Counted from the stretch's first letter, positions 36,140 through 48,409 are shown. The stretch is 64,000 nt of DNA from an uncultured Thalassolituus sp. (GCF_950066645.1 NZ_CATMFB010000017.1:1-64000), one strand, 5' to 3'. Notes: generated from the letters alone by a model not told the origin. A program made the numbers and translations.

Positions 36140-36195
36140 CCGGATAACCGCAGCCCTTTCTCTCTGAAAAGGCTGCGGTATCCGGTTATTTTTTC
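36140..36195 (+). terminator. Long hairpin terminator of the thioesterase gene
   Basis: CCGGATAACCGCAGCC...GGCTGCGGTATCCGG pairs over about 18 positions, then TTATTTTTTC. The tail overlaps the stop codon of the convergent nitrilase gene. Confidence 0.85.
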
Positions 36196-37709
36196 ACGAT
36201 GATGTCGTAAAGATCTTTGCGACGGTCTTTCAGGTTGCGGACAGAGCCTTCGTTGTGAAGAATCCGCAGTTTGTCCATATCCAGATCTGAAAACAGCAGC
36301 ATTTCGGTATTGGCTGTCGCCTCTGACAGTACGGCATCGTGTGGGAACGGGAAGTCAGATGGTGTCAGCACGGCTGACTGGCTGTACTGAACATCCAGGC
36401 TTTCCACCTCTGGCAGGTTACCCACACTGCCGGCGATGACGACATAGCACTCATTCTCAATGGCTCTGGCCTGGGCGCAGTGGCGGACACGCAGGTAACT
36501 GTTCTTAGTGTCTGTCCAGAAGGGTACAAACAGAATTTCCATACCCTGCTCCGACATGATGCGGCCCAGCTCCGGGAATTCAACGTCGTAGCAGATCAGA
36601 ATGCCGACACGACCCGCGTCGGTTTCGAATACCTGAAGCTGGTTTCCGCCACGGATTACCCAGTCGTTTTTCTCGTGAGGGGTAATGTGAATCTTGCGCT
36701 GTTCGTCGACTTTACCACTGCGATGACAGAGATAAGATACGTTATAGATCGTCCCGTCTTCGTTGATCGGCATCGAACCGGTAATAATATTGGCGTTGTA
36801 TTCGACCGCCATACGGGACATGGCATCGCGGATTTCGTCGGTAAAACCAGCCAGAAAACGAATTGCTTCAGTCTGAGATGTTTCCGGGCAGAGGCCCATC
36901 AGAGGCGCGTTAAAGAATTCGGGAAAGACGATAAAGTCACACTGATAATCGGACACAGTATCAACGAAATATTCGACCTGCTTGAGCAGTTCTTCCAGTG
37001 AGCTTACCAGACGCATCTGCCACTGTACGGCGCCGACACGTACCGTAGTTTTACGGGACAGAAGCACGGTATCTGTCGGCTCATACAGAATGTTGCTCCA
37101 TTCGAGCAGCGTTGCGTAACCCACCGACGCAGAATCTTCAGGCAGGTACTTACGTAACAGACGCTTTACCTGAAAATCGTTGGAAAGCTGGAACGACAGA
37201 ATGGGGTCATAAATTTCTTTCGTATCCACTTTCTGGATGTAGTCCATGGGGGACATTTCATCCTGATAGTTGTGGTAACTGGGAATACGACCACCGGCCA
37301 GAATGGCCTGAAAATTATACTGACGGCAGAGTTCTTTACGGGCATCGTAAAGACGGCGGCCGATACGCATACCGCGGTGTGATTTTTTAATAACGACATC
37401 AAGCCCGTAGAGCGCATCGCCCTCGGGGTCGTTCGATACTACGTCGTTACTGTCGACAATGTCTTCGTAAGTATGCGGATTGGAAAAACGCTGGTAATCG
37501 ACCTGAACAGACAGGGCGATCCCGACCAGCGCGTCGCCATCAATGACACCGATCTGACCTTCCGGAAACTCATCAATAAGACGCTGAATAGTATGCTGTG
37601 GCCAGGCGCCGCCGAGTTCAGGGTAGGCCTCATCCATCAGTATCTTGATCTGGTCGTACTGAACCAGTGAGAGATTACATAATTCAAGGTGAAGGCGTTC
37701 GGATGCCAT
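36186..37709 (-). CDS. GNAT acetyltransferase-carbon-nitrogen hydrolase fusion
   Basis: 507 residues. An N-terminal GNAT domain (about 1-190, with DVVIKKSHRGMRIGRRLYDARKEL as the acetyl-CoA loop) is fused to a nitrilase-superfamily amidase (about 220-490). The Glu of its Glu-Lys-Cys site lies in FIVFPEFF, the Lys in the HITPHEKNDW region, and the Cys in GILICYDVEFPE. This fusion is recurrent in gammaproteobacteria; the substrate is not known to me. Flanked by unrelated genes. Confidence 0.88.
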   Translation of the reverse strand: MASERLHLELCNLSLVQYDQIKILMDEAYPELGGAWPQHTIQRLIDEFPEGQIGVIDGDALVGIALSVQVDYQRFSNPHTYEDIVDSNDVVSNDPEGDALYGLDVVIKKSHRGMRIGRRLYDARKELCRQYNFQAILAGGRIPSYHNYQDEMSPMDYIQKVDTKEIYDPILSFQLSNDFQVKRLLRKYLPEDSASVGYATLLEWSNILYEPTDTVLLSRKTTVRVGAVQWQMRLVSSLEELLKQVEYFVDTVSDYQCDFIVFPEFFNAPLMGLCPETSQTEAIRFLAGFTDEIRDAMSRMAVEYNANIITGSMPINEDGTIYNVSYLCHRSGKVDEQRKIHITPHEKNDWVIRGGNQLQVFETDAGRVGILICYDVEFPELGRIMSEQGMEILFVPFWTDTKNSYLRVRHCAQARAIENECYVVIAGSVGNLPEVESLDVQYSQSAVLTPSDFPFPHDAVLSEATANTEMLLFSDLDMDKLRILHNEGSVRNLKDRRKDLYDIIVKK

Positions 37710-37822: not shown

Positions 37823-39262
37823 TTACTCAGGGCGCGGGCCGCGTGGTGGACGGTCGTCGTCACTGCGGAACTGCCACCATGAACGTTCAGCACGAGGGCC
37901 ACGTCCGGCTTTACCATGACGTGTGATCTCAGATTCCAGTGTCAGTTGAGCGATTTCTTTTCCGCCTACGCTGACGGTATAACTACCGTCTTTTTTCAGC
38001 AGCGCAGAAGAATACGTCAGCGACTGGAAATCACGAGGCGCAACGTAATCCAGAAGAAGTTCACCTTGTGCATCTCTGATGGTGAAGTGATCGCCTGTGG
38101 ACAGAGGGCTGTCCAGGTTGACCTGAATGATCGGTTGGGTTGAGGTGTCTGACGGTGTCTGTGCCATGCCGCTGCTGCCATGGGCGATCAGCGTACCACC
38201 TGTCAGGTTGAAGGTGCCGTCGACATCGATATAACCATCACGCTGGCTGAGTGGCCCGTTGACGATGAGTGTGCCACCGGACATTTCGGCGTGACCGTTG
38301 GAGTCGAATCCGTCACCGCCTGAATGAACAATGGTGTAGCCGCCGCGGATACTCAGCAGGCCATCGATGGCTTTTCCGTGCCCGCGACCGCCGCGTTCTT
38401 CTTCCGCGGCTGCTTTCTGCTCTGCTGTTTTCTTCAGCGTGACATTGAGGCCGTCATCCTTTGCATTTACTTCGATGTTGCCACTGTGGATCGTGATATA
38501 ACGGCTCTCGATGGCTTCATACGACTGGGTGATTTTCAGGTTTCCGCCCGCAATGTCGACCTTATTCGCCCCCATGATGCCGTCGTCTCCGGCACTGATG
38601 GTGATATCGCTGTCTTCGAGATTCACGAATCCTTTGTCTTCACGCTCAAGGTTATCCGATTTAATCGCATCACCACCGGCGACAATCTGTACGTTTGAGC
38701 GACGGATGTCGACACTGTCTTTACCCCGGATGCCTTCGTCTTTGGCATCAACAACCAGAGTGACATCGCGCAGGTCGAGATCATCTTTACCCACAACGGC
38801 ATCTTCCCGCAGACCCTTCACTGTAAGAGAGGCACCAGTGCCGCCTTCAATCCGAAGGTCTGCGCGGGAGAACAAAGCGCCCTGTGGCTCGTCGTTACTC
38901 ACACTGCCATCACTATCAGAAATCAGGTTGTCAGACTTCTCCGCAAGACGGACAGTGACATCCCCGGATTTCTGAATATACAGCGCGGCGCTCTGATGAC
39001 TGATGACGCGGGCACCATCGAGAATCAGTGTGACTTCTTCATCGCCCGCATTGACGATCAGAGAACGTCCGGCGCTGTCTCCCGAGAGGCGGTAGTCGCC
39101 TCCCTTTGCAATGGTAATGCTGTTTTCGTCAACTGACACCGCGCCGTTAACCGCTTCGGGCTGAGCGAGATTAATGGTCTGTGTTGCGGCGTGCGATGCG
39201 CCGGAGGCGATCGCCAGGCCGGTAAATAAAGCGCTGTAGCTGAATCGTGAAAAGGTACTCAT
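37823..39262 (-). CDS. Cthe_2159-like secreted beta-helix, carbohydrate-binding domain protein
   Basis: 479 residues with a signal peptide (SALFTGLAIASGASHAA) and then many short repeats of right-handed beta-helix type (GGDAIKSDN, SAGDDGIMGANKVDI, NAKDDGLNV, GGDGFDSNGHAEMSGG). These match the Cthe_2159/carbohydrate-binding family, whose founding member is a calcium-binding polysaccharide-binding beta-helix. The C-terminus is rich in Arg, Gly and Pro. GGAGAG upstream supports the ATG. The start lies 92 bases inside the end of the upstream DUF4956 gene. Confidence 0.82.
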   Translation of the reverse strand: MSTFSRFSYSALFTGLAIASGASHAATQTINLAQPEAVNGAVSVDENSITIAKGGDYRLSGDSAGRSLIVNAGDEEVTLILDGARVISHQSAALYIQKSGDVTVRLAEKSDNLISDSDGSVSNDEPQGALFSRADLRIEGGTGASLTVKGLREDAVVGKDDLDLRDVTLVVDAKDEGIRGKDSVDIRRSNVQIVAGGDAIKSDNLEREDKGFVNLEDSDITISAGDDGIMGANKVDIAGGNLKITQSYEAIESRYITIHSGNIEVNAKDDGLNVTLKKTAEQKAAAEEERGGRGHGKAIDGLLSIRGGYTIVHSGGDGFDSNGHAEMSGGTLIVNGPLSQRDGYIDVDGTFNLTGGTLIAHGSSGMAQTPSDTSTQPIIQVNLDSPLSTGDHFTIRDAQGELLLDYVAPRDFQSLTYSSALLKKDGSYTVSVGGKEIAQLTLESEITRHGKAGRGPRAERSWWQFRSDDDRPPRGPRPE

Positions 39263-39959
39263 TCTGCGAACTCTCCGTGGCTAGATAATAAAGTGCAGGT
39301 GTCACACCCGTGCAGGAACGTAATTCATCGAGCAGTGGCTCGTGTTGATCGGCTTTTAATCTGACTTCAATGACTTTCTCAATCAGTTTTCCGCCCTGAT
39401 TATTTTTGATCGTATCTGAGCGGATAAAGTAACTCTGAACACGGGATTTGTTTTCCAGATGAGCTTTGATATCTGCCCACTGGCGACTCTCACTGTATTT
39501 GAGGATCAGCATATACGAGGGCTCGAAACTGACAGACCGTGACAGGCCCCAGAGAACGACGGAAATAAACAGGCTGGCGATGATAGAAAGCTGGTAATAC
39601 TCCACGCCGTTGGCAATGCCGACGGTAATTGACCAGAAAATAAATGCAGTATCCCGCGGGTCTTTCACAGCCGTCCGGAAACGGATAATAGAAAGCGCAC
39701 CGATCATCCCTAATGACAGCATCAGATTGCCACTGATACCGATCACGATCGCGTTGATCGCAATCGCAACCATGACCAGTGTGATATTAAAATTCTTGGA
39801 ATAAAGAACGCCGTTGTAAGTCTGCCGGTATACCCAATATATAAACATCGCCATTACAAACGTGGCAGATAACGAAATAAATATCTGTAATGATCCAAGG
39901 GTTGAATCCAGCATCAGCTGGCTTGAATTAAACAGAGAACTGAGATCAGTGGGGGTCAT
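39171..39959 (-). CDS. DUF4956 membrane protein
   Basis: About 262 residues with four or so membrane segments (LQIFISLSATFVMAMFIYWV, ITLVMVAIAINAIVIGIS, LMLSLGMIGALSIIRF, YYQLSIIASLFISVVLWGL). The cytoplasmic hallmark LSIIRFRTAVKDPRDTAFIFW is clear. The family often travels with VTC polyphosphate polymerase genes, as here. ATG at 39959 is chosen (MTPTDLSSLF), but it has no good ribosome-binding site and may depend on coupling to the upstream gene. The last 28 residues overlap the next gene and look like an extension past the normal family end. Confidence 0.82.
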   Translation of the reverse strand: MTPTDLSSLFNSSQLMLDSTLGSLQIFISLSATFVMAMFIYWVYRQTYNGVLYSKNFNITLVMVAIAINAIVIGISGNLMLSLGMIGALSIIRFRTAVKDPRDTAFIFWSITVGIANGVEYYQLSIIASLFISVVLWGLSRSVSFEPSYMLILKYSESRQWADIKAHLENKSRVQSYFIRSDTIKNNQGGKLIEKVIEVRLKADQHEPLLDELRSCTGVTPALYYLATESSQNEYLFTIQLQRFIYRPGDRLRRIARRNTDH

Positions 39960-39982
39960 AATAATCAGTCGTGGTCGATGAA

Positions 39983-40705
39983 TTAAGCGCTGTAAAACTC
40001 GCGCATGTGCATACGCCCAAGGCAATATTTACTGATTGCCTGAGCGGTCGTCCCGTTGAGACGGAAAATCTGTGGAAACCACCCAGGGAGACAGTGATTG
40101 AATTTCACTTCCATAATGATGGTGTCACCCCGTTGAATCTGCTCCATTTCCAGTGAGTCGCAGAACAGATCGGTTTCCTCTGTGCTGATCCGGAGATTCA
40201 TATCGAACGTCACCCGGATGTCGTTGTAGTCCATGAGATACACTTCACGGTCATAATCGATCATCGCGGTAGGGCGGAAATAGCGGCGCTTGAGATCAAA
40301 AAAGATAGAGCGAGCACTGTTGGAATCTATGTCCAGTAACCAGTCGTAATCGCCCTCAATCATCTGATAGGCCTGCTCGCGGGAAATCGTTACCGAACTT
40401 TTATCCACAAACTGATTATGTTTCCGTTTGCGTTCGAGCTTTGCCCAGTTCTGATCGGGTGAATAGACGCGGATCCGGTATTTATCGCGCTCTTCGATAC
40501 CATCAAGCTTGTCTTCGACCGAGGTATTCAGAATGTCGTCAAAGTAGAGGCTGCGGATAAAATAACCGCGTTCACTTTTCTGATTCGGATCGCGCTCCAT
40601 CAGCTCACTCAGCAGGGCGCGTGCGTATTCGTAATCTGCATGACTGATAAAGAACTTTACTTCGTGACGTTTGACCGACAGGGCCTGCGTTCTGAGGGCC
40701 TTCAT
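39983..40705 (-). CDS. VTC-domain polyphosphate polymerase-like protein
   Basis: 240 residues matching the catalytic tunnel domain of yeast Vtc4. The basic and acidic residues lining it are all recognisable: RHEVKFFI, RSLYFDD, YRIRVYS, LERKRK, DYDREVYL and IMEVKFN. It probably makes polyphosphate or a related phosphate polymer from nucleotide; this is family inference. It has no membrane segment, so the adjacent DUF4956 protein is the likely membrane partner. One base separates it from the upstream lamin-tail gene. Confidence 0.87.
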   Translation of the reverse strand: MKALRTQALSVKRHEVKFFISHADYEYARALLSELMERDPNQKSERGYFIRSLYFDDILNTSVEDKLDGIEERDKYRIRVYSPDQNWAKLERKRKHNQFVDKSSVTISREQAYQMIEGDYDWLLDIDSNSARSIFFDLKRRYFRPTAMIDYDREVYLMDYNDIRVTFDMNLRISTEETDLFCDSLEMEQIQRGDTIIMEVKFNHCLPGWFPQIFRLNGTTAQAISKYCLGRMHMREFYSA

Positions 40706-40706
40706 A

Positions 40707-41210
40707 TCAGCGTCCTGTCCCGGATGTTTCCTGGTAGAAAACTTCAGTGATACTCAGGTCATTGCCCGGGCGGCCCATAGTGAAGGAGCCTTCGTAATTT
40801 GGCGGTGCGAGCAGGGTCATCCTGTCGATCTGTGATTTACCGTCGCGCGCCGTCAGCACCAGGGTTTCACCGTTCCCCAGATTAAAATTCAGCCTGGCAC
40901 TGCCATAGGGCGCTGAATCGGATGCTTTTCCATACACCCTGAGCGTCTGATGTGAGCCGATCACCCAGTCGCTGGTGAACTGCCACTTAGTAGGATCATC
41001 AAGATTATCGGACAGAAAATAGCCCTTCATACTGATGCTGTTCAGTGTCGGGTTGTAGAGATCCAGCCAGTCTTCTTTTGCGTTGTTCGTGAAGGACGCT
41101 TCTTTCAGATAGACCGTACTGGCGCTCTGGCTCTGGCTCAGCCAGAACAGCGCCGGAGTCAGAAGCGTGAACAGTAAGACCAGAATGTGAAGAGGTTGAA
41201 ATCTCGGCAT
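40707..41210 (-). CDS. Exported lamin-tail-domain protein
   Basis: 167 residues. An N-terminal signal or anchor (LHILVLLFTLLTPALFWLSQ) is followed by one lamin-tail (LTD) domain of about 110 residues: VYLKEASFTNNAKEDWLDLYNPT, ISMKGYFLSDNLDDPTKWQF and LNFNLGNGETLVL. LTD domains are often found in secreted proteins, including next to CotH kinases. Here no CotH is present. It appears to be the first gene of the VTC/DUF4956/beta-helix operon. Confidence 0.75.
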   Translation of the reverse strand: MPRFQPLHILVLLFTLLTPALFWLSQSQSASTVYLKEASFTNNAKEDWLDLYNPTLNSISMKGYFLSDNLDDPTKWQFTSDWVIGSHQTLRVYGKASDSAPYGSARLNFNLGNGETLVLTARDGKSQIDRMTLLAPPNYEGSFTMGRPGNDLSITEVFYQETSGTGR

Positions 41211-41604
41211 AGCTCTGTGGCTGCAATATGACAGAATTGCTGCATTTTAATGCAATTAAGATGTATTCGTATTTATTTTTGTATAGAAGTGTGGGACGCA
41301 CGGAACCCTCGCAGATCACCATAGTGAGCCGGCTGTTCGGGATGTGAGATTCTGAAATGCGTTCTGGAAGAGAATGGTAGGCAGTAGCTGTCATCGGCGT
41401 TGTGATACGCGCGGGGTACGCCCCTTGTATGTCAGTGATATGACAGCAACAGCCTGTCCCAGCAGTTTCAGCGTATTGTATGCGGATAATTTCATTGAAC
41501 TCCGTTGGCCGTATTGGACAGCAACGCCATGGTGCCAGCATAGCTGTCACAGAACGGACACGTCCCGTCTCCTTACTGAGCGCTCCAAAAATGGGGGACG
41601 AACA
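41211..41604. other. Divergent intergenic region of 394 bases
   Basis: It separates the leftward lamin-tail operon from the rightward phosphoesterase gene, so it should hold both promoters. I see two short palindromes, TGCATTTTAATGCA (41241-41254) and TGTCA-GTGATA-TGACA (about 41429-41444), but no clear operator family. The track's ORFs here (minus 41005-41550 and the upstream extension of the phosphoesterase frame) lack signals and look non-coding. Confidence 0.5.
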
Positions 41605-43614
41605 ATGAACAATACGAAATTAATAGCGCAGCTTACGTTGCTCGCTGCGGCAGTTACGCTGACGGCGTGTGGTGGAGACAGCAATAACTCCGATTCAGAT
41701 GATGTCGCTACAGAGCTGCCTGTGGTGGAAACACCTCAGAATGAGGCATCACCGGGTGATGACGACAGTCGCCACTCTGTCTTTACACTTGGGGTTTTGC
41801 CGGACACCCAGGGTGGCTCAGATGCTACCGGACAGGCGCATGTTGCCATACACCCAATGGATGAGGTTCTGAAGCACCAGTTAGCCGCTGGTGTGAATCT
41901 GGTCATCCCGGTTGGCGATCTGACCGATAAAGGTTCTGCTGTGGAATGGGAAGAGTGGACCAGCGTTGCTCGCCCATACAAAGAGCAGGGTATGGAGTTT
42001 CTCCCGGTAATGGGTAATCACGAGCTGAATTATTCATATACCACGGGTTGGATAAACGCGATGCGGGAATTTATTCCTGAAGATGCAGTGCATATGCCGG
42101 GCTACGAGTGGATAAATTATTACGTTATCCGTGAAAACGTTCTGATGATCGGCCTTGCATACTACAACCTTCCTCTGGCAATTAATTGGATAGAAGACGT
42201 TGTCGCAACGCACCGCGCTGACGTAGATCACATTGTGGTTGCGAGTCACGATGGTCTGATTGGCGCCAAGTATGGTCAGACTCGTGAGCAGATTGTTGAA
42301 GGCACAAAAGATGACGACTGGGTGTACAGCGTTGCGGATGAAATTCGCGCATTTTTTGCAGAGCATGATGTCATTTATGTACAGGGGCACGAGCACCAGT
42401 ACCAGCGATCTCTTATTGCGCGTGATACCGCTCAGACGTCTTTCCCATCAGGTTCAACACCCGAAGGCGGAAACTACCGTATGAACGTCTATACCCAGAT
42501 TCTGTCCGGTAATGCCTCTTATAAGGGGTATGAATTCCGTTATGGTGAGCGTGAACTGGTGCAGATGATCGTCGCTCAGAAAAACGCGACCATGAGCGGG
42601 GGATCTGATCACTTTGATGTGAATTCCAGCTGGTTGCGGTTTGATAATGATCGGGTGGATTACGCCTCTTACTACGCAGAGCATACCGCTCAGAATAACA
42701 ACAGTGATCAGGATTTTGATGCAGACTGGCACCTGATGGATAAATTCAGTCGCACAATTAATCGCTGTGAAACCGTGATTTATCCTAACAATATTCCTGA
42801 AGGTACGCGGGCAGTTATGGTCTTTCAGCCAGAGTACCTGACGGATTACTGTCTGGCTGACGATGGTTCTATGGCGCGTCTGGTCGGTGGAAGTAACGAT
42901 ACGTTTAACCGTACCGACAGCCGTACTCGCGATATGGGCTATACCCCAGGGTTCAGCCGTGCAGAAACCCTGACAGACCTGACCCGCCTTGCCTATCAGT
43001 GGTTGTACCAGTACCACGAAAGCTGGACTCCGAATCTGAATTCTGGAGTACGGGTGATTCCAGACGGCGAGGCCGGCGAACTGGTCATTCCTGAAGTCAC
43101 GGTCGATCTGAAAGAGCACGTTACTCTCAGTTGGACGCCAGCGACGGAAACTACGGTATCTGACATTCTGATTGTATCGGGCACTCAGAATCAGACAGGC
43201 GTGTATCAGGGAGATTACGGTGAACCTAAAGATATGCAGGCAGATACCGGACTGACGGTGAAAGACGGCGATGGTGATGATATGGCGAAGCCAGCCGTTG
43301 TTCTGCCGGCCAGCGCAACTGGCTCGTGGGATATTTCAGACGCAGTGGCTGATCCCTATGCCGTCGCCTTCACGGCTTCTGAAAATGTCACAGGAGACGG
43401 CGTGATACTGGCCCGTCGTGCCGGCGATAGCTGGCAGCCATTGGCAGATACTGGCTGCATTATTGAAGGCATCTGGCTCGAAAGCTATATCACCAGTCCG
43501 CCAGCCCGAAGTGCAGCGTGCGAAGGTAGTGCTGTGTTGGGTTATGACGCGGACGACAACATCTGGTGGTCGATTCTCACCGAGGATACAGAGCTGGCAC
43601 TGATCAGCCGCTAA
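41605..43614 (+). CDS. Metallophosphoesterase lipoprotein
   Basis: About 669 residues. A lipoprotein signal peptide ends LTLLAAAVTLTAC, with Cys20 as the lipid anchor. Calcineurin-like motifs follow: LGVLPDTQGG, GDLTDKG, VMGNHELN, VASHDG and QGHEHQYQRS. The first motif has DTQ in place of DxH. The C-terminal 300 or so residues form unassigned, probably beta-rich, domains. It should face the periplasm or outside and cleave phosphate esters; the substrate is unknown. GGGGGACG upstream supports the ATG at 41605. It is divergent from the polyphosphate-type cluster, so a functional link is possible. Confidence 0.85.
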   Translation: MNNTKLIAQLTLLAAAVTLTACGGDSNNSDSDDVATELPVVETPQNEASPGDDDSRHSVFTLGVLPDTQGGSDATGQAHVAIHPMDEVLKHQLAAGVNLVIPVGDLTDKGSAVEWEEWTSVARPYKEQGMEFLPVMGNHELNYSYTTGWINAMREFIPEDAVHMPGYEWINYYVIRENVLMIGLAYYNLPLAINWIEDVVATHRADVDHIVVASHDGLIGAKYGQTREQIVEGTKDDDWVYSVADEIRAFFAEHDVIYVQGHEHQYQRSLIARDTAQTSFPSGSTPEGGNYRMNVYTQILSGNASYKGYEFRYGERELVQMIVAQKNATMSGGSDHFDVNSSWLRFDNDRVDYASYYAEHTAQNNNSDQDFDADWHLMDKFSRTINRCETVIYPNNIPEGTRAVMVFQPEYLTDYCLADDGSMARLVGGSNDTFNRTDSRTRDMGYTPGFSRAETLTDLTRLAYQWLYQYHESWTPNLNSGVRVIPDGEAGELVIPEVTVDLKEHVTLSWTPATETTVSDILIVSGTQNQTGVYQGDYGEPKDMQADTGLTVKDGDGDDMAKPAVVLPASATGSWDISDAVADPYAVAFTASENVTGDGVILARRAGDSWQPLADTGCIIEGIWLESYITSPPARSAACEGSAVLGYDADDNIWWSILTEDTELALISR

Positions 43615-46720: not shown

Positions 46721-48409
46721 ATGGATGAGAAAACCGGGAAGTTTTACAGCGATCACGTCAGTGATGTATTTGCGCGTTACGATGCTGTTGATAGCCCCGT
46801 CGCTAAGTATTTCTCGCAAGCCTTTCCTCAGCTGGGCAGCAGAATACTCGATATTGGATGTGGCACAGGGCGTGACCTGCGGGCCTTAATCGCAGCAGGC
46901 TACAAGGCCTGCGGAATTGAGCCCGTCGACGAATTAAGAAAACGGGCAATTCAGAACCATCCAGAGCTGAGTGATTGTCTGAAGCCGGGAGTTCTTCCCG
47001 GATATAAAGAAGAAAAAAAGTACGACGGTATTCTCTGTAGCGCTGTGTTAATGCACATTCCTCAAGGCCAGCAGCTCGAGGCCTTTCTTGATATCCGCAA
47101 CTTACTGAGGGTAGGCGGGCACCTGTTACTGTCAGTTCCAGAAAACCGTAATGATCTCGACGAAGAATTAAGAGATCCCAATGGTCGATTGTTTATTCCG
47201 ACTGATCCACAAAGAATCCGCCTGATAGCCGAGCAGATCGGATTTACTTTTCTTAGTTTAAGTACTGACGACGATGCTCTGGGAAGGGCGGGACATTCCT
47301 GGAATACGCTGATATTCGAGAAATCCAGTGAGGCAAACCGGCCGCTGGATCGTATCGAGTCTGTATTGAGAATCGACAAAAAAGTCGCTACCTACAAGCT
47401 CGCGCTGCTACGGGCTTTCTGTGACATCGCAGAACGTGATGAGAACGCCGTAACATGGTTCGCCGATGGTTACGTAGGAATGCCGATAGAAGCGCTGGCA
47501 GAGTGTTGGTTAGCGTATTACTGGCCGCTCGTTGCTGCTCCTGTGCATATTCCGCAGAGTCAGACAGACTTCGAGTATTCAAAAAAGCGTCTTTTAATCA
47601 GAGAAAGTTTGAAAAAATTAATCGAGCTGGCCTCGTATGGAGAGGAAATTACCCCTGAAACTGCCTATGCAATCCTACTGGCTTCATGGAAGAAAGGAAC
47701 TTATTCGAAAGATATTAAAGCGCAATTAAACCTAGTTCTTAAGACATTCACCAAGGCGATCATTACAGGCCCCGTACGTTACTCAGAGGGTGGAGGCATG
47801 TATCACTATGACGCCTCTGCATCACTTGTAATGATTGAGTCTGATTTATGGCGGGAGTTCTGTTTATCCAGTCACTGGATCAGAGACTCAATTATTCTCA
47901 GGTGGGCAGAATTGTCTGAAAAGTTCGCAAGGAAGAATTGTCCTGAGATAAACAAAGGAATAGCTCTTCCGTTCCTATTGCCGAACGTTGACTTAAAGCG
48001 AGAGCAGTCTATTGCCCGTCAGATGTATGAGGAGCATCCGAACCTTACCTGCGTATGGACGGATAAAAAGATTACTCTTGCTTCGATGGATGTCGATCAT
48101 GCGTTGCCGTTTTCTCTCTGGCGAAATAATGATTTATGGAATCTCCTGCCTGCAGCACGAAAGGTGAATAACGAGAAGCGGGATAAAATCCCAACACCTG
48201 AATTATTACGTCGCCGCAAGGAAGCGATTGTCGAAACCTGGCGCTTTGCTAATGATAAGCAACCGCTCGTTTTTGAGTTCGAAATATATCGAACGTTAGG
48301 AAGATTCCGTGAGGAGTCCTGGGAGCAGGAGCTTTTTCAATATATGTCTGAGCGAGCAGCAGTGGCGATTTATCGGCGGGGCGAGACTGCGTGGGATTTT
48401 GGTGCTTAA
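46721..48409 (+). CDS. Class I SAM methyltransferase fused to an HNH endonuclease domain
   Basis: 562 residues. The N-terminus (about 1-205) is a class I methyltransferase with motif I ILDIGCGTGRDLRALIAAG, GIEP after strand 2, and LLRVGGHLLLSVPEN. The middle (about 220-420) is helical and begins KKVATYKLALLRAFCDIAE, a pattern I associate with HNH restriction-type proteins. The C-terminus (about 440-510) has an HNH-like site: DVDHALPFSLWRNNDLWNLLPAARKVNNEKRD. The gene is richer in A+T than its neighbours and stands alone between two unrelated operons, suggesting transfer. No DNA-methylase DPPY motif is seen. A phage-defence role is possible but unproved. Confidence 0.75.
   Translation: MDEKTGKFYSDHVSDVFARYDAVDSPVAKYFSQAFPQLGSRILDIGCGTGRDLRALIAAGYKACGIEPVDELRKRAIQNHPELSDCLKPGVLPGYKEEKKYDGILCSAVLMHIPQGQQLEAFLDIRNLLRVGGHLLLSVPENRNDLDEELRDPNGRLFIPTDPQRIRLIAEQIGFTFLSLSTDDDALGRAGHSWNTLIFEKSSEANRPLDRIESVLRIDKKVATYKLALLRAFCDIAERDENAVTWFADGYVGMPIEALAECWLAYYWPLVAAPVHIPQSQTDFEYSKKRLLIRESLKKLIELASYGEEITPETAYAILLASWKKGTYSKDIKAQLNLVLKTFTKAIITGPVRYSEGGGMYHYDASASLVMIESDLWREFCLSSHWIRDSIILRWAELSEKFARKNCPEINKGIALPFLLPNVDLKREQSIARQMYEEHPNLTCVWTDKKITLASMDVDHALPFSLWRNNDLWNLLPAARKVNNEKRDKIPTPELLRRRKEAIVETWRFANDKQPLVFEFEIYRTLGRFREESWEQELFQYMSERAAVAIYRRGETAWDFGA

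Follow-up and report, generated by a model that had tools for sequence, protein, structure and literature searches.

The yeast VTC complex couples the synthesis of polyphosphate to its passage through the membrane (PMC9911596). In bacteria, related genes have been described as accessory members of Gram-positive Pel operons, which code for CotH, a poly-phosphate polymerase, DUF4956 and DUF4832 proteins, as in SIR_1594-1591 of S. intermedius (PMC7112168, PMC12345266). In this organism, a mutant lacking the VTC gene (SIR_1593) showed no aggregation phenotype, in contrast to mutants lacking DUF4956 (SIR_1592) or CotH (SIR_1594), and Pel production was raised in the mutant without DUF4956 (PMC12345266). 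Polyphosphate is also found outside the cell in gonococci, for which unnamed gene products were suggested as outer-membrane carriers (PMC10237660). The literature searched contained nothing relevant on bacterial VTC-linked export, and no paper in it named DUF4956 together with 'VTC domain'.

Here, we analyzed a related gene set in a gammaproteobacterium of the genus Thalassolituus. The first-pass annotation had called the role of this set undefined in gammaproteobacteria, and this was true of the literature searched (most subscription journals and preprints lay outside it), in which the form with LTD and Cthe_2159 proteins was not described. However, the VTC/DUF4956/CotH trio had already been described and knocked out in the Gram-positive Pel operons (PMC7112168, PMC12345266), and the set reported here is a variant of that known module.

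The four-gene locus

The window, i.e., the whole stretch of 64,000 nucleotides that was analyzed, contained four leftward genes at 37823-41210, for LTD, VTC, DUF4956 and Cthe_2159 proteins. All four were present as originally annotated, and each product exceeded the Pfam curated cut-off for its family in profile searches. The first gene of the operon (40707..41210, minus strand) coded for a 167-residue LTD protein (Pfam LTD, 9.9e-11), predicted to be exported or membrane-anchored. It was followed by genes for a 240-residue tunnel enzyme of the VTC polyphosphate polymerase type (39983..40705, minus; Pfam VTC, 2.2e-35), predicted to be cytoplasmic; a DUF4956 (MgtC-like) inner-membrane protein (39258..39959, minus; Pfam DUF4956, 4.7e-15), the proposed partner or translocon of VTC; and a right-handed beta-helix protein of the Cthe_2159 type with 479 residues (37823..39262, minus; Pfam Cthe_2159, 2.1e-55), predicted to be exported. 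The LTD and VTC genes were separated by 1 base and the VTC and DUF4956 genes by 23 bases, and the DUF4956 and Cthe_2159 genes overlapped, a layout as in a single transcription unit. The preceding stretch (41211..41329, minus), which included a block of ~50 bases strongly conserved with T. maritimus, is probably the promoter or a regulatory region of the operon.

Direct reading of the LTD and Cthe_2159 proteins revealed export-type N-termini, that of the LTD protein being hydrophobic. The Cthe_2159 protein, which was conserved in Thalassolituus, Oceanobacter and Marinomonas, had Asp-rich turns and an Arg/Gly-rich C-terminus and matched PDB 4peu at 8.9e-25.

The whole four-gene block was shared by these three genera, with differing flanks. 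The block did not follow the nitrilase gene in five further Thalassolituus genomes examined, suggesting that it was gained or lost as a unit; in three of these five, the LysR and nitrilase genes were adjacent. Plasmid spread of this operon type was considered and rejected: no copies of it were found in plasmid records, where only distant Bacillota and actinobacterial entries matched. Two multidomain proteins were also observed in the window. A protein of 507 residues (36186-37709), in which a GNAT acetyltransferase is fused with a carbon-nitrogen hydrolase, borders the insertion point of the operon and was kept in 9/9 Thalassolituus genomes searched, and methyltransferase and HNH endonuclease domains were predicted in one protein of 562 residues (46721-48409), adjoining an alcohol dehydrogenase/esterase pair.

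The first-pass annotation had also remarked on a missing CotH kinase, and indeed none was found in this 3.7 Mb genome (99.99% complete); CotH kinases are usual in relatives, occurring in 16/26 gammaproteobacterial clusters, several of them fused to a right-handed beta-helix. The locus might accordingly be a decayed CotH system, in which the LTD gene is a remnant of an LTD-CotH kinase and the original function has been lost. Consistent with such decay, the gene immediately upstream of VTC in one locus (L052, genome G018), i.e., in the place occupied by LTD in the window, coded for a CotH kinase with LTD fused to its N-terminus, and the DUF4956 gene of the window is frameshifted. Its frame continues to 39171, overlapping the Cthe_2159 gene, whereas DUF4956 genes of relatives end in an ATGA overlap near 39259. 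Comparison with these relatives showed that the window is one base short near 39299, so that the last ~12 residues of DUF4956 are unlike theirs; the frameshifted C-terminal end (39171..39300, minus) extends across the start of the Cthe_2159 gene. The one-base loss may reflect a genuine mutation or a mistake in the assembly. However, the CotH-less block was intact, with conserved catalytic residues, in T. maritimus, Oceanobacter and two Marinomonas, and a Paenibacillus record (L125) had VTC, DUF4956 and Cthe_2159 in the same order as the window, again with no CotH. We therefore regard decay as very unlikely. A separate case was a locus (L072, 7732-14300) with a split CotH gene and unassigned insertion-sequence-like ORFs between CotH and VTC, which is possibly a decaying copy.

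VTC and DUF4956 proteins

The VTC protein scored 122.7 bits (cut-off 23) and covered positions 1-231 of the 235 in the Pfam profile (PF09359). When a profile of bacterial VTC proteins was compared with PDB, yeast Vtc4 was matched at 2e-17. Twelve residues of the window protein, R13, K17, R77, R79, E91, K93, K102, R153, R164, E199, K201 and K226, aligned with Vtc4 R196, K200, R264, R266, E279, K281, K294, R361, R373, E426, K428 and K458, respectively, and were the same in 24/24 bacterial proteins compared. Thus, the tunnel residues are intact, as had been claimed, including R77, R79 and E199, whose Vtc4 counterparts (R264, R266 and E426) were altered in the protein used for the yeast VTC structure (PMC9911596). 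In addition, S225, which aligned with Vtc4 S457, was common to 96% of the bacterial proteins compared. An AF2 model of the window protein (pLDDT 84.3) had 3g3r as its top Foldseek match (2.4e-13, TM 0.72), and Vtc4 was the best solved match; tripolyphosphatases and thiamine triphosphatases, which have the same fold, were also found. The tunnel residues and the Vtc4-like modeled fold make it likely that the protein is catalytically competent, and its enzyme assignment is well supported. A PPK1 was also identified in this genome by family search, and therefore polyphosphate need not depend on VTC in this organism.

The DUF4956 protein scored 56.2 bits (cut-off 30.6; PF16316). A structure model and hydropathy suggested about four transmembrane helices and a C-terminal alpha/beta domain. 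MgtC is a sequence relative of this family, although the Pfam match was weak (6e-4). The model was of low confidence, and a fold search with it yielded no match at E <= 0.001 and no solved channel; the C-terminal domain alone resembled small alpha/beta regulatory folds.

We examined the occurrence of both families in 295 genomes of the order and 369 genomes of the class. VTC was present in 14/295 and DUF4956 in 21/295 genomes of the order, and all 14 genomes with VTC had DUF4956 (hypergeometric P about 4e-19, relatedness not removed). The class sample added eight VTC loci. Among 26 gammaproteobacterial loci, VTC and DUF4956 occurred within one cluster at 25, the 26th being interrupted by a contig end. 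Distance matrices of the two proteins were correlated (r = 0.83, reached by 0/2000 permutations, phylogeny not removed), which is expected for genes inherited together. VTC and DUF4956 are thus strictly linked in the genomes sampled. The proposal that these genes recur together was borne out by this neighborhood survey and across phyla; co-occurrence in relatives, on which the first-pass annotation had staked its reading beforehand, was also found, the four-gene block being present in three genera.

Seven genomes of the order had DUF4956 and no VTC. A VTC-less DUF4956 subtype was observed in five loci of Pseudomonadales genomes (L073-L076 and L054), adjoining an exported calcineurin-like phosphoesterase in two of them (L074, L075) and an SdiA-regulated/phytase-like esterase in L054. 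This subtype represents a different phosphate-related DUF4956 system.

Neighboring genes and regulation

A divergent gene beside the operon (41605..43614, plus strand; likely start, 41605) coded for a calcineurin-like phosphoesterase lipoprotein (Pfam Metallophos, 9.8e-10). The suggestion that it could act on the product of the operon, as a part of the system, was not supported. In two of the five Thalassolituus genomes without the block (G105, G179), the phosphoesterase adjoined the nitrilase gene with a gap of ~400 bases, and the Oceanobacter and Marinomonas loci yielded no member of its family. The phosphoesterase is thus independent of the block, and we rejected it as a part of the system, placing it outside the conserved unit. 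A Pho-box-like site (CTGTCATATCACTGACAT, 41429..41446, minus, 1 mismatch) was detected between the operon and this divergent gene. Such sites were enriched in the genome (51 versus 18 for a reversed control), including some upstream of PstS-, PhoB- and PhoU-like genes. Weaker Pho-like sites were present at matching positions upstream of the phosphoesterase in operon-free genomes, and no Pho-box-like site was seen in the majority of the other VTC operons examined. Because of these two observations, the box at 41429-41446 is more plausibly assigned to the promoter of the phosphoesterase than to the operon. As evidence that phosphate controls the operon itself the box is weak, and we rejected this candidate mechanism.

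These data also bear on the reaction of the VTC protein. It could be a tunnel enzyme that hydrolyzes tri- or polyphosphate, or transfers phosphate to another acceptor, in an operon for phosphate scavenging. The same-fold tripolyphosphatases and thiamine triphosphatases among the Foldseek matches would agree with this, as would the adjoining phosphoesterase with its Pho-box-like sites. Nevertheless, Vtc4, Vtc2 and Vtc3 were the best sequence and structure matches, well before other tunnel enzymes, and the operon was not consistently linked to Pho boxes, which makes a different reaction quite improbable.

Other genes in the clusters of relatives, whose VTC proteins were only 20-34% identical to that of the window, offered further clues. 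Porins of the OprO/P family were found in 9/26 loci, three of them confirmed by Pfam and the others identified with a profile built here; in P. aeruginosa, OprP and OprO conduct phosphate and pyrophosphate (PMC9769906). One of the clusters (L070) combined such a porin with Cthe_2159, VTC and DUF4956. The window genome had two weak matches to this porin family, both away from the operon. HlyD-type adaptors occurred in three clusters (L048, L065 and L066), the last of which also had an outer-membrane efflux protein (OEP). No ABC, RND or MFS pump was recognized beside HlyD in these clusters, so that the membrane protein occupying the position of a pump is DUF4956. L048 had a PPK2 gene immediately upstream, and L065 had a gene for a PiT phosphate transporter. 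None of these neighbors of VTC (PPK2, PiT, OprO/P-family and HlyD/OEP) was reported in the literature searched, most subscription journals and preprints being outside the search. They are compatible with the earlier idea of a phosphate polymer made at the membrane, and point to a polyphosphate product that passes through the envelope.

The main rival to this interpretation is control of an exopolymer. VTC would make or sense cytoplasmic polyphosphate and, together with the MgtC-like DUF4956, regulate or energize a surface polymer with no phosphate-based export, while the beta-helix and LTD proteins would bind polysaccharide. The Bacillota trio is located in EPS clusters, those for Pel among them (PMC7112168), and Pel levels are altered by deletion of DUF4956 or CotH (PMC12345266). 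Among the gammaproteobacterial neighbors were MBOAT/AlgJ-type genes (in L043 and L047) and genes resembling those for glycosyltransferases or polysaccharide export (in L039, L040 and L067), and Cthe_2159 is named a carbohydrate-binding family by Pfam. On the other hand, no EPS genes were seen flanking the window operon, and PelG, the only Pel gene included in a genome-wide family search, was not found. Exopolymer control also leaves the PPK2, PiT, OprO/P-family porin and HlyD/OEP neighbors unexplained, and we consider it somewhat unlikely.

Proposed function and comparison with known systems

We favor the interpretation that two genes of the operon form a bacterial equivalent of the eukaryotic VTC polymerase-translocase, with the other two coding for exported helpers; we assign this interpretation a probability of roughly 45%. 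In this model, cytoplasmic VTC would convert the gamma-phosphate of ATP to polyphosphate, and DUF4956 in the inner membrane would dock VTC and feed the chain outward as it grows. Either in the periplasm or at the cell surface, the chain would then be bound or retained by the two exported proteins, LTD and the Cthe_2159 beta-helix, probably with the help of calcium. DUF4956 is moderately supported as a translocon, and the chain-holding role of the two exported proteins is weakly supported. A broader and more tentative possibility, to which we give somewhat less credence, is that DUF4956 is a polyphosphate translocon and that VTC and DUF4956 together form a system for polyphosphate secretion that is widespread among bacteria and whose outer parts can be exchanged. 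These might be an OprO/P-type porin, an HlyD/TolC-type conduit, CotH/beta-helix or LTD with Cthe_2159, the last pair being the outer parts in the window's own operon type.

The strongest fact contrary to a split VTC system is the deletion pattern of S. intermedius, in which aggregation was affected by loss of DUF4956 or CotH and not by loss of VTC (PMC12345266), which favors a role of DUF4956 and CotH in surface polymer control. Also counting against our preferred reading are the seven genomes with DUF4956 only, the low-confidence DUF4956 model, the kinship with MgtC, the presence of PPK1, the C-terminal frameshift, and the distance between the window VTC and those of the relatives supplying the cited neighbors. 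VTC with one membrane family and phosphate- or export-related neighbors provides a concrete two-gene candidate for bacterial polyphosphate export. If true, the yeast-type coupling of polymerase and translocase would presumably exist in a simpler bacterial form.

Compared with known systems, the beta-helix protein belongs to the same family as the Cthe_2159 protein of known structure (PDB 4peu), both by Pfam and by sequence, but is encoded in a VTC/DUF4956 operon and has the Arg/Gly-rich C-terminus. In C. perfringens NELoc-2 and a Planococcus plasmid locus, VTC also adjoins a membrane protein, which is DUF4956 in Planococcus (PMC2879425). However, these loci (NELoc-2, VTC/membrane protein/CotH/HEAT/glycosyltransferase) contain CotH and an EPS-type glycosyltransferase that are not present here (PMC2879425). 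The Gram-positive Pel-operon module likewise has adjacent VTC and DUF4956 with exported partners (PMC7112168, PMC12345266), whereas the window, from a different phylum, lacks CotH and PelG, has no recognized DUF4832 protein, and carries LTD and Cthe_2159 instead. With the eukaryotic complex (Vtc1/Vtc3/Vtc4), the operon shares the Vtc4-type tunnel domain, its key residues and fold, and a physically linked membrane part. It differs in that the 240-residue protein consists of the VTC domain only, with no SPX and no transmembrane domain in cis, that the membrane part is encoded by a separate gene of the unrelated DUF4956/MgtC-like family, and that exported LTD and beta-helix proteins are added.
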